Shown here: piece after piece, positions 21,438-25,426 of the stretch
Layout of the letters: every line of letters starts with the position of its first letter
Position numbering within the stretch: the stretch's first letter is position 1
Translations under genes and position numbers: made by a program
Notes under the pieces: generated by a model
What the model was told of the DNA's origin: nothing
Seen by the model: only the letters and a program-made list of their open reading frames with translations
Database searches by the model: none
NCBI RefSeq assembly: GCF_003751635.1
Contig: NZ_RJVI01000001.1
Coordinates: 908,726-972,725, forward strand
Source of the DNA: Inmirania thermothiophila
GTDB lineage: Bacteria > Pseudomonadota > Gammaproteobacteria > DSM-100275
DNA: 64,000 nucleotides
Direction: 5' to 3'

Positions 21438-22907
21438 TCAGTCCTCGAGCTCGATCTCATCGGCGGCGATTGCCGCCCCGTCCCAGCAGCCCTTGACCTT
21501 GACGAGATCGCCGTCGGCCGCCCGGGCAAGGAGGTCCGGCGGCTCGAAGGCGGTGGCGGCGTCGAAGACCACCTTCACCCCCTCCACGGTGAAGTCGCCG
21601 GCGGCGGTTCCCGCCGGGGGCAGCCCCTGGGCCACGCCCTGCAGCTCCACCTCCTCGCCGGCTATGCCGCAGGGCGGCGCCGTGTCCGACTTCTTCTCGA
21701 TCTCCGTGGCGACGAGGGTGCCGTCCTCCAGGCGGCGGGCGGAGAGCTTGACGTAGTCCCCGTCCGCCGGGCCGCCCTCGAGCTCGGTGAGGTCGTCGGC
21801 CTCCACCGTGAGGGCGCCGCCGAAGAAGGTCACCGGCCCGGCCGCGGGGTCGCCCGCCAGGGTGGCCTCGATCCGGATCCGGGTCTCCTTGAACTCCACC
21901 TTGTCCGCGGTGACGGTGGTGCCGTCGGCGCCCACCACGCCCTCCACCTCGACGCGGGCGTTGGGGACGAGGTCGGCGGCGGTGCCGTGCTCGAAGGCGG
22001 TGCCGGTGGCGACGACGACGCGGTTGCCGGTGTGCAGGGTGAAGGCGTCGGGCAGGCCGTCGGCGTCGCTGTCCTCGGTGGCGGTGACGAAGCCCTCGAT
22101 CTCGGCGTCGTCGTCGGGGTCGGCCGTGACCGGGTCCTCCAGGGCCACCGCGGTCGCGGTGACGGCGGTGTAGGGCGGTCCGGCCCCGTCCACCGTGCCC
22201 TTCACCTCCACCGTGTCGCCCACCGCGATCACGGGGGCGGCGGGGGGCAGGTGGACCGTGAGGCCGCCGAGGGTGATGGTGCCGGACCCGGTCGCCGTGA
22301 CCCGCCCGGTGACCTCCACGTCCTCCGCCGGGTCGAAGTGGTCGTCGAGGATGCGCACGTAGGTGGCGAGCACGGGGCCGCTGGCGCTGAGCAGGCCGCT
22401 GATCTCCACCCGCTGGCCCGGCGCGAGATCGGCCGCGGAGGCGGTGTGGAAGGGGTCGCCCGGACCGTTGTCCCGGTAGACGAAGACGTTGGCGTCGAGG
22501 ACGACGGTCTGTCCCAGCACGGTGATCACGCCGTTGCCCGGCGCCCCCTCCAGCGGGCCCTCGATCAGGCGGTCGAAGCGGACCTCGAGCGCCTTGCCGG
22601 AGGTCGCGGTCTCGATGTCGCCGTCGACGGTGACCACCATGCCCTCCTTGAGGCGGGCCTTGACCACGGCGTCGCCCTTGCCCACCGACTGGCCCTCCAC
22701 GAAGACCTCGGCCTCCGGGGTCTGGAAGGTCACGCCGTTCACCTTCACGCTGCCGATGAGCAGGATCGGCCCGAAGGAGATGCCGGTGCCCCCGATGCCG
22801 CCGCCGCCGAGGAGGAGGGCGGCGCCGCCCCCGCCTCCGCAGGAGGTGAGGACGCCCAGGGCCGCGGCGGCCGTGATCATGCGTGCGATGCGGTGCAGCC
22901 TGCTCAT
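21438..22907 (-). CDS. DUF5666 repeat lipoprotein, translationally coupled to DUF6502
   Basis: Product of 489 aa. The N-terminus is a lipoprotein signal peptide with lipobox LTSC just before a run of Gly. The rest is four or five loosely repeated beta-rich modules. Examples are KEGMVVTVDGDIE, APGQRVEISGLLSASG, VGDTVEVKGTVDG, PNARVEVEGVVGADGTTVTA and GDLVKVKGCWDGAAIAADE, the pattern of DUF5666, a predicted OB-like fold. It is probably anchored in the outer membrane facing the periplasm. The ATG overlaps the DUF6502 stop (ATGA), so the two are co-expressed. Function is unknown. A related lipoprotein is encoded just upstream at 23.9-25.3 kb. Confidence 0.88.
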   Translation of the reverse strand: MSRLHRIARMITAAAALGVLTSCGGGGGAALLLGGGGIGGTGISFGPILLIGSVKVNGVTFQTPEAEVFVEGQSVGKGDAVVKARLKEGMVVTVDGDIETATSGKALEVRFDRLIEGPLEGAPGNGVITVLGQTVVLDANVFVYRDNGPGDPFHTASAADLAPGQRVEISGLLSASGPVLATYVRILDDHFDPAEDVEVTGRVTATGSGTITLGGLTVHLPPAAPVIAVGDTVEVKGTVDGAGPPYTAVTATAVALEDPVTADPDDDAEIEGFVTATEDSDADGLPDAFTLHTGNRVVVATGTAFEHGTAADLVPNARVEVEGVVGADGTTVTADKVEFKETRIRIEATLAGDPAAGPVTFFGGALTVEADDLTELEGGPADGDYVKLSARRLEDGTLVATEIEKKSDTAPPCGIAGEEVELQGVAQGLPPAGTAAGDFTVEGVKVVFDAATAFEPPDLLARAADGDLVKVKGCWDGAAIAADEIELED

Positions 22908-23761
22908 CTCGGGTCGTCCTCCGTCTCCCTGTCCGCCACCGGGCTCGTGGCGTAGTCCTCCTCGAAGTAGTAGATGCCCACGCCGGCGACCTTGCGCCCC
23001 GTGCCCTCGGCGTGGGGGTTGACGTCGCGGTCGTGGGCGGCGAGCCACTGGTCCAGCTCCTCGAGCACCCCCTGCCCGCGCTCCTCCACCAGCGCGCGCA
23101 GCTTCGGCAGCACCTCCGCGGGCAGGTTGTCGTAGAGGACCTTGCGCTGGAAGCGCGTCGCCGGCGGCTCGTGCCGCAGGTTGTGGTCGATGGTGGCGAT
23201 GAGGAGGGCGACGTCGGTGCCCAGGATGCCGAGCTTGTCCACCTCGCCGGTGCGCGGCACGTAGGCCTTGGTGAGGAGGCGCACGGCGCCGTCGGCGGTG
23301 CGCTCCACGGCGCCGACGCGGACGAGCTCGTCGAGGATGGCGCGGGGCGGGATGTCGCCGCTGTAGCGGCGCACCAGCGCGCTGAAGCTCGCGCCCTCGC
23401 CGTCGAAGGGCAGCACCGCCGGGCGGCCGGTCTCGTCGGCGAAGCGGTGGTCGCGCACCCAGCCGGCGATGACGCGGGCGGCGCGGTTGTAGCGCTTCTC
23501 GGTCTCGTCGCTGCGCGGTCCCGGCAGCCGCTGGATGCGCAGCACCTCCTTGCGCGTCAGGCCCGTGATCACGGAGATGCGCGAGTTGGTCTGCTTGCGT
23601 CCGGGGATGCCGAACTCCTTCGCCGCCACGTCCACGAAGACCCACTTGGCGAGCTCGGCGAACTCCTTGAAGGAGACGCCGTTGCGCAGCAGGATCCTGA
23701 CCAGCGGCCTGAGCAGCCGCAGGACGGCGTCGGAGATGGCCTCGCGGACGTCGTTGCTCAT
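22904..23761 (-). CDS. DUF6502 family protein, putative DNA-binding regulator
   Basis: Product of 285 aa with no signal peptide. The N-terminal part (about 1-80) is helical, and TNSRISVITGLTRKEVLRIQ (58-77) resembles a helix-turn-helix. The remainder has no motif I recognise. The family is uncharacterised as far as I know. It is coupled by ATGA overlap to a DUF5666 lipoprotein. An 18-bp palindrome lies immediately before the start codon, and a near copy sits in the promoter of the second DUF5666 gene. I infer an autoregulating transcription factor for this lipoprotein locus; direct evidence is lacking. Confidence 0.82.
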   Translation of the reverse strand: MSNDVREAISDAVLRLLRPLVRILLRNGVSFKEFAELAKWVFVDVAAKEFGIPGRKQTNSRISVITGLTRKEVLRIQRLPGPRSDETEKRYNRAARVIAGWVRDHRFADETGRPAVLPFDGEGASFSALVRRYSGDIPPRAILDELVRVGAVERTADGAVRLLTKAYVPRTGEVDKLGILGTDVALLIATIDHNLRHEPPATRFQRKVLYDNLPAEVLPKLRALVEERGQGVLEELDQWLAAHDRDVNPHAEGTGRKVAGVGIYYFEEDYATSPVADRETEDDPR

Positions 23762-23763
23762 GA

Positions 23764-23796
23764 TTGGGACCTTAGTCCCAAATTAACAAAAGTCAA
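23764..23796 (-). promoter_or_regulatory. Promoter/operator of the DUF6502-DUF5666 operon
   Basis: Palindrome TTGGGACCTTAGTCCCAA (7-bp arms, 4-bp centre) at 23764-23781 ends 2 bp from the ATG. On the minus strand TTGACT (23796-23791) lies 16 bp before TAAGGT (23774-23769), the same geometry as the second site at 25.4 kb. An alternative pair is TTGCCA (23811-23806), 18 bp, GTTAAT (23787-23782). The palindrome also covers the only possible ribosome site (TAAGG), so the transcript may be leaderless. Confidence 0.6.
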
Positions 23797-23833
23797 CATG
23801 TTTTGTGGCAATCATCGGATCGGCTGGCAGGCC

Positions 23834-23864
23834 GCGGCCCGCCCCCGCGCCGGGGGCGGGCCGC
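23834..23864 (-). terminator. Strong hairpin after the second DUF5666 gene
   Basis: A perfect 14-bp GC stem (arms 23834-23847 and 23851-23864) with a 3-nt loop lies 15 bp beyond the stop codon of the upstream lipoprotein gene. It has no T tract. It separates that gene from the DUF6502 promoter. Confidence 0.5.
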
Positions 23865-23879
23865 GCCGGGGTCGCCCGG

Positions 23880-25343
23880 TCAGTCGTCGAACTCCACCTT
23901 GCGGGCGGTGAGCACGCCGCCGTCGTAGCTGCCCTTCACCTTCACCGACTGGAGGCCGGTGCCGTTCGTCAGGCGGGCGAAGAACCCGGCGCGGGTCAGC
24001 ACCACGTCGTCCTCGGCCTCGAACGTCGCGTTGGTGGTGTCCACCTGGACCCCGAGGAGCTCGAAGACGGGATCGGCGATGCCCTGCGCGAGGCTCGCGG
24101 GGGCGCGGAGCTCCCAGTCGTCGGGATCGAACCCGTCCTCGGGCTCCGCCCGCACAGCGCTGACGGCCGAGCCGGTCCAGCGGCCGCGCACCTCGTAGGC
24201 CTGCCCGTCGGTCAGGGTGTCCCCGGTGACGGCGATGCCCATGATGGCCCCGCCCTGGGCCACGCCCGTCAGGCGCACGCCGCCCTTGAACTTCACCTTG
24301 TGCGCGACGAGGACGCCGCCCGCCGAGAGCTGGCCCTCCACCTCCACCCTGACGCCGTCGGCGAGGTCGGCGGCGGTGCCGTCGACGAACCGCACGTTGC
24401 CGCTCGCGTCCACCGGCTGGCCCGCGACCTCGAAGTCGGAGGGGCCGGCGAAGTCGGTCACGAAGCCCTCGATCTCCACCTCGTCGGCGTCCACGTCCCC
24501 CAGCCCCTCCATGGCGGGCTCCACCTTGGTGGCGTGGAGGACGCCCGAGCCGTCGATGCAGTCGGTGACGTCGCCGATGCCGTCGTCGGCGCGGGCCTCG
24601 GGGTCGCACTTGACCTCGACGAAGGTCCCCGACCACGGGTGGGGCGGCATGCCGTCGTCCACCACGGCCTCGCGGTAGTCCACGGTCTGGGTGCCCACCT
24701 GGAACGTGGCGCCGTCGTCGGGATCGGCGGTGACGGTCGCCCTGAGCTCGAGCTTGCGCTTGCCCTGGGCCGTGGCGAACGCCGCGAGGTCCGGCGCTTT
24801 GCACTCGACGTAGGTGGCCTCCACCTCGCCGGCGGCGTTGCGGTGGCCGCTCACCTCCACGACGTTGCCGTCGGCGAGCGCGGCGAGCCCGCTGCCGGTG
24901 CCGGTGCAGCGGCCGGTGTCGTGGAAGACGGTCCCGTCCGGCGAGGTGTGCACGGTCTGGCCGAGGACGGCGAAGGTCCCGGCCGCGGGGTCCAGTCCGC
25001 TCACGGGGCCCTTGAGCTCGTCGTCGAAGACGACCCGGGTGGCGACCGCGTTGCCGCTGTCGTCCATGGTGCCCTCCACGGTGACCACCATGCCCACCCG
25101 CAGCGCCTCGTGCCCGCTCGGGTTGTCGTCCACCTCAATGGCGGCGCCGCTGTCGTCCCAGTGCACGCCGTTGACCCAGATGCTGCCGAGCTGGGTGATC
25201 ACGCCCTGGCTCGCCACCGTGGTCGGGGTGCCGCCGTCGGCGCTGCCGCCGCCTCCGCCGCAGGCGGCGAGCAGGGCCGCCGAGGCGGCGACGGCGGTCC
25301 AGGTCCCGGCCCGCCGGATGTGCCGCTGCATGTGCTTCTTCAT
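23880..25343 (-). CDS. DUF5666 repeat lipoprotein, second copy
   Basis: Product of 487 aa. Signal peptide MKKHMQRHIRRAGTWTAVAA is followed by lipobox LAAC and a Gly run, so it is probably an outer-membrane lipoprotein. Repeated modules include RVGMVVTVEGTMDDSGNAVA, VEVSGHRNAAGEVEATYVE, VRVEVEGQLSAGGVLVAHKV and a final SVKVKGSYDGGVLTARKVEF. Size, lipobox and end sequence resemble the lipoprotein at 21.4-22.9 kb, so they look like diverged paralogues. I chose the ATG with GAGGAGG upstream; the longer frame would run through the promoter/operator. Extra Cys residues (about four in the middle) may form disulphides. Confidence 0.86.
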   Translation of the reverse strand: MKKHMQRHIRRAGTWTAVAASAALLAACGGGGGSADGGTPTTVASQGVITQLGSIWVNGVHWDDSGAAIEVDDNPSGHEALRVGMVVTVEGTMDDSGNAVATRVVFDDELKGPVSGLDPAAGTFAVLGQTVHTSPDGTVFHDTGRCTGTGSGLAALADGNVVEVSGHRNAAGEVEATYVECKAPDLAAFATAQGKRKLELRATVTADPDDGATFQVGTQTVDYREAVVDDGMPPHPWSGTFVEVKCDPEARADDGIGDVTDCIDGSGVLHATKVEPAMEGLGDVDADEVEIEGFVTDFAGPSDFEVAGQPVDASGNVRFVDGTAADLADGVRVEVEGQLSAGGVLVAHKVKFKGGVRLTGVAQGGAIMGIAVTGDTLTDGQAYEVRGRWTGSAVSAVRAEPEDGFDPDDWELRAPASLAQGIADPVFELLGVQVDTTNATFEAEDDVVLTRAGFFARLTNGTGLQSVKVKGSYDGGVLTARKVEFDD

Positions 25344-25392
25344 GGTCCCGTCCTCCTCGTCACGGGTAGGGCGCCGCCCTGTGGCGCCTTTG

Positions 25393-25426
25393 TTTGGGAA
25401 TATAGTCCCAAAACCATCCTTGTCAA
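25393..25426 (-). promoter_or_regulatory. Promoter/operator of the second DUF5666 gene
   Basis: Minus strand: perfect -35 TTGACA (25426-25421), 16-bp spacer, -10 TATATT (25404-25399), about 48 bp of leader before the ATG. The palindrome TTTGGGA-N6-TCCCAAA (25393-25412) covers the -10. Its 18-bp core TTGGGAATATAGTCCCAA matches the site before DUF6502 at 15 of 18 positions. A repressor bound here would block RNA polymerase. Confidence 0.75.

Follow-up and report, generated by a model that had tools for sequence, protein, structure and literature searches.

A predicted DUF6502 autorepressor and its candidate palindromic operator at DUF5666 lipoprotein genes

The lambda cI gene (PRM) and the genes of restriction-modification controller (C) proteins are leaderless and autoregulated, with an operator that overlaps their own promoter. 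The DUF6502 genes considered here resemble them in a predicted leaderless transcript and in an operator over their own promoter. However, the protein is unrelated, its targets are exported lipoproteins, and it is predicted to act as a repressor only. The IclR-family repressors BlcR (3mq0) and PcaR (8ejv) are locally similar in their winged helix-turn-helix (HTH), with a Foldseek probability of 0.87 over 41-82 columns, although DUF6502 has an extra N-terminal HTH and no sequence match to the family. Membership of IclR was rejected: Pfam gave no IclR match, and neither Foldseek nor a sequence search of the PDB returned a significant one. The Pfam entry for DUF6502 (PF20112) carries no function, to which the present analysis adds a candidate operator, the geometry of its promoter and a set of predicted targets. 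DUF5666 (PF18914) is also an entry of unknown function. No paper on DUF6502 was found in the library searched, and the literature found there on DUF5666 names the domain in gene or feature lists only. The kind of circuit is familiar, while the regulator family, its operator and its target set appear to be undescribed.

The locus lies in a window of 64,000 nucleotides, the whole stretch of Inmirania thermothiophila DNA that was analysed. Three genes follow one another on the minus strand in the order P0003, P0001, P0002 (Table 1). An earlier note on this DNA, made from the sequence alone, had read them as a DUF6502 gene and two DUF5666 lipoprotein genes, and the Pfam matches bear this out. P0001 is a full-length member of DUF6502 (317.6 bits against a cut-off of 27, model positions 3-264 of 268), and P0002 and P0003 are multi-repeat members of DUF5666, both above the gathering score (149.3 bits with 6 domains and 121 bits with 4 domains, respectively), with lipoprotein signal peptides seen in the sequence. 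The ATGA junction said to couple P0001 to P0002 is present at 22907-22904. Ahead of P0003 is a leader of some 50 nt that carries a purine-rich ribosome site, GAGGA. The locus has no match among defence families. A GC-rich inverted repeat without a T run is seen at 23830-23880, in the gap that separates P0003 from the promoter of DUF6502; it was not called in the terminator scan, which found no terminator between the two transcription units.

Table 1. Genes, promoters and candidate operators of the locus, in window coordinates.
Feature	Position	Strand	Basis or remark
P0002: DUF5666 repeat lipoprotein, 489 aa	21438..22907	-	PF18914, E=3.7e-44
P0001: DUF6502 protein, 285 aa, predicted autorepressor	22904..23761	-	PF20112, E=5.6e-95
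Operator 1 (candidate): TTGGGACCTTAGTCCCAA	23764..23781		spans the -10 of the DUF6502-DUF5666 operon; 2 nt separate it from the ATG
Promoter 1: TTGACT 23796-23791, 16 bp, TAAGGT 23774-23769	23769..23796	-	sequence
P0003: DUF5666 repeat lipoprotein, 487 aa	23880..25343	-	PF18914, E=2.5e-35; sequence
Operator 2 (candidate): TTGGGAATATAGTCCCAA	25394..25411		covers the P0003 -10 box
Promoter 2: TTGACA 25426-25421, 16 bp, TATATT 25404-25399	25399..25426	-	consensus scan, 11/12

Each transcription unit is preceded by an 18-bp palindrome. The first lies where the earlier note had placed it, and the second also exists, but one base away from the position given there (25395-25412). The identity of 15 of 18 bases between TTGGGACCTTAGTCCCAA and TTGGGAATATAGTCCCAA is as had been claimed, and so is the layout at both promoters, with TTGAC(A/T), a 16-bp spacer and a -10 hexamer lying inside the palindrome. 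Promoter 2 is the sole sigma-70-like match of the consensus scan in 2 kb (0.0 expected), while the -10 of promoter 1 is weak. The palindrome pattern occurs four times over both strands of the window, that is in two places, against 0.20 expected, and exact TTGGGA-N6-TCCCAA is found only in these two places in the whole 2.6-Mb genome.

Aligned over 135 members, DUF6502 retains a HTH signature at residues 56-80, in which R70 never varies and S60, R61, T66, G67, L68, K71 and E72 are nearly invariant. The HTH-like segment had been singled out for structure prediction, and an AlphaFold2 model of P0001 made with this alignment (pLDDT 89, pTM 0.73) predicts a HTH fold there, with helices at 59-66 and 70-78 (pLDDT 96-98). 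A second winged-helix-like unit is predicted at residues 126-162. Foldseek against the PDB returned no significant whole-protein match to DUF6502; the best was HetR (3qod), which was dropped as a homologue with an E of about 0.03 and a TM of 0.3. Sequence searches of the PDB gave insignificant matches only for DUF6502, and nothing with the DUF5666 profile. Fold comparison with the PDB does not settle which of the two predicted HTH elements would read the operator.

Conservation of the palindrome was examined in 152 non-redundant DUF6502 loci (1.61 Mb), picked by protein similarity and not by palindrome; many are assembled-metagenome contigs, some of them truncated. In the window's class, 28 of 94 genomes and 99 of 370 genomes carry DUF6502, and its 80 named contigs come from Gammaproteobacteria, Nitrospirota, Desulfobacterota-type deltaproteobacteria, Planctomycetota, Myxococcales and others. 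With up to one mismatch, the palindrome occurs 144 times in the 152 loci, whereas 59 palindromes with permuted half-sites occur 3.1 times on average and 17 times at most. Of the 144 sites, 122 are at DUF6502 or DUF5666 starts (97 and 26, respectively, with one common to both), against 12.6 expected from the share of sequence in those windows. The core GGGA-N6-TCCC stands upstream of 96/153 DUF6502 genes, compared with 0.96 in dinucleotide shuffles. At least one such site (up to one mismatch) is present at a DUF6502 or DUF5666 gene in 103/152 loci; about a third of DUF6502 loci have no recognisable site at this threshold, partly as diverged clades and truncated contigs. Bacteria from at least five phyla have the candidate operator word ahead of their DUF6502 and DUF5666 genes.

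The position of operator 1 relative to the DUF6502 gene recurs in relatives, as does the spacing to the -35. A TTGACA-like hexamer (at least 4/6) lies exactly 10 bp before the palindrome at 40/97 DUF6502 sites, and 9 bp before it at 15 more; at DUF5666 sites the 10-bp distance is seen in 15/26 cases, and all other spacings account for 7 or fewer sites each. The centre of the palindrome, TATAAT or TATATT, forms the -10, usually with 17-bp spacing, and the logo is the same at DUF6502 and DUF5666 sites. The site therefore overlaps the core promoter elements in many relatives as it does in the window. Such regularity bears on the idea that the palindromes arose by chance, or are RNA or terminator hairpins outside regulation. 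Some exact matches in other genomes are indeed hairpins beside genes. However, the rarity of the word genome-wide, its enrichment over permuted palindromes and shuffles, and the fixed -35 spacing argue against this idea, the locus has no match to RNA families (Rfam), and with the comparative data already contradicting it, it can be practically dismissed.

In 46/97 DUF6502 sites the ATG begins 1-5 nt after the palindrome, most commonly 2 nt, as in the window. Because the -10 is inside the site, the DUF6502 mRNA is expected to start at or next to the ATG, with no room for a ribosome site, so that the message is probably leaderless; at promoter 1 the expected start is at the ATG or one base from it. 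Leaders of DUF5666 genes in relatives are about 20-200 nt. A protein bound at these sites could also be an activator, or a repressor that a ligand turns into an activator. The start codon is more distant at about half of the DUF6502 sites, and tandem operators exist (11/14 close pairs are spaced 22-26 bp), as would suit activation. But a site over the -10 with a near-consensus -35, as found in the window and in many relatives, is in a position typical of repressors, and activation by DUF6502 is considered improbable.

Repression by DUF6502, the preferred reading, would reach beyond the two promoters of the window. Exact sites elsewhere in DUF6502-carrying genomes are often ahead of genes for exported proteins, among them more DUF5666 lipoproteins, a beta-propeller lipoprotein and a carboxypeptidase-regulatory-domain protein. 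Near DUF6502 loci, sites with one mismatch are found ahead of DUF4382 lipoproteins, and in some loci without DUF5666 a large Calx-beta/fn3 lipoprotein is directly behind DUF6502. The predicted regulon thus extends to further genes in trans. On another contig of the window's genome, a two-mismatch variant, GTGGGATAAATTTCCCAC (G000:C2:922818-922835; L003:1501-1518), stands 18 nt before the ATG of P0004, a P-loop protein with weak DUF1611/MobB likeness. P-loop proteins of this kind are behind the operator in four other DUF6502-carrying genomes; the gene has no such site in nine DUF6502-carrying genomes, nor in 7/7 genomes examined that have a close relative of the P-loop gene and lack DUF6502. 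P0004 is a probable third target in the window's genome, to be taken as a lead rather than a result. A further palindrome, TTGGGACTAGACTCCCAA, is kept in either orientation in three related genomes (L247, L248 and L251; G164, G259 and G021), in two of which it is ahead of a gene for a small glycine-zipper protein. It has a GC-richer centre, and may be a target or a hairpin.

In 97 cases the gene right behind DUF6502, on its strand, is a DUF5666 gene, 48 of them with the 4-base ATGA overlap, and the pair forms a conserved, coupled operon. Of 370 genomes of the class, 67 have DUF5666, and 64 of these have DUF6502 (p=4e-42). The exact palindrome is found in 34/64 genomes that have both families, 3/35 that have DUF6502 alone, 0/3 that have DUF5666 alone and 25/268 that have neither, or in 37/99 DUF6502-carrying genomes against 25/271 that lack DUF6502 (p=2e-9); these co-occurrence statistics are confounded by phylogeny and represent few independent events. 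The reversed pattern, used as a control, has no association with DUF6502 (p=0.72).

The 25 genomes that have exact matches without DUF6502 could indicate that the palindrome belongs to an unlinked regulator, with DUF6502 merely one of its targets, and binding by DUF6502 is itself predicted from sequence. However, the matches in these genomes are of a different nature. Their centres are GC-mixed, with 5/24 AT-rich, compared with 40/51 AT-rich. Of 13 examined, not one has a DUF5666 gene nearby, and closer inspection showed, among others, a tRNA-type hairpin and a site inside a gene. Together with the seven P-loop orthologues that lack the site and the conserved HTH in DUF6502 itself, this makes an unlinked owner of the palindrome very unlikely, and leaves DUF6502 as the preferred reader of the word.

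Operators differ among DUF6502 clades. A diverged clade with Tyr at residue 59 has ACGGGA/ATGGGA half-sites around the same N6 core, with TTGACA. Loci L141, L146, L138, L137 and L148, a DUF6502 clade without DUF5666, have ACGGGA/ATGGGA-N6-TCCCGT-type operators right before the ATG, with TTGACA in several. Upstream of DUF6502 in L139 and L228, the differing palindromes ATTTGTGACTAAAATCACAAAT and TTTGGTCTTATTATACCAAA are found near the start, and these are possible further operator classes. Mutual information between operator flanks and protein columns is dominated by clade structure, and the link between Y59 and ACGGGA is therefore suggestive only. The pattern suggests a coordinated change of operator and recognition segment, from a small number of independent events.

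The sites themselves, with their conservation, position and genome-wide rarity, the co-occurrence and the operon structure are read directly, and a mechanism can be proposed from them. DUF6502 would be a DNA-binding one-component repressor. Since the GGGA and TCCC cores are 10 bp apart, a DUF6502 dimer is envisaged to fit one recognition helix into each of two successive major grooves of TTGGGA-N6-TCCCAA. The bound protein would cover the -10 of otherwise strong sigma-70 promoters, blocking its own operon, in which DUF5666 is translationally coupled, and the neighbouring DUF5666 lipoprotein gene; the position of the site and the strength of the promoters suggest that it represses. With a leaderless DUF6502 mRNA and long lipoprotein leaders with ribosome sites, the repressor would probably be kept low and the lipoproteins would rise sharply on derepression, caused by a ligand or signal presumably sensed by the C-terminal half.

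It is very likely that DUF6502 is a HTH autorepressor that, through the palindrome over the -10, shuts off both the operon it belongs to and the DUF5666 lipoprotein gene next to it. This was the reading of the earlier note, and it gains comparative support from the palindrome, which recurs in several phyla at genes of both families, and from the predicted HTH. A wider proposal is evenly balanced: that DUF6502 is a new one-component repressor family, built with two HTH elements and unmatched as a whole protein in the PDB, spread over at least five phyla, drifting in specificity with its recognition segment, and switching on a mobile lipoprotein regulon (DUF5666, DUF4382, beta-propeller, Calx-beta) upon a signal.

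Two domains of unknown function would thereby be joined in a regulatory circuit that can be tested and whose DNA word is defined. Given such a word, sequence alone may suffice to predict targets in many uncultured bacteria that cycle sulfur, metals and nitrogen. The circuit also offers a handle on the role of the widespread DUF5666 lipoproteins, as whatever lifts DUF6502 repression would tell their purpose.
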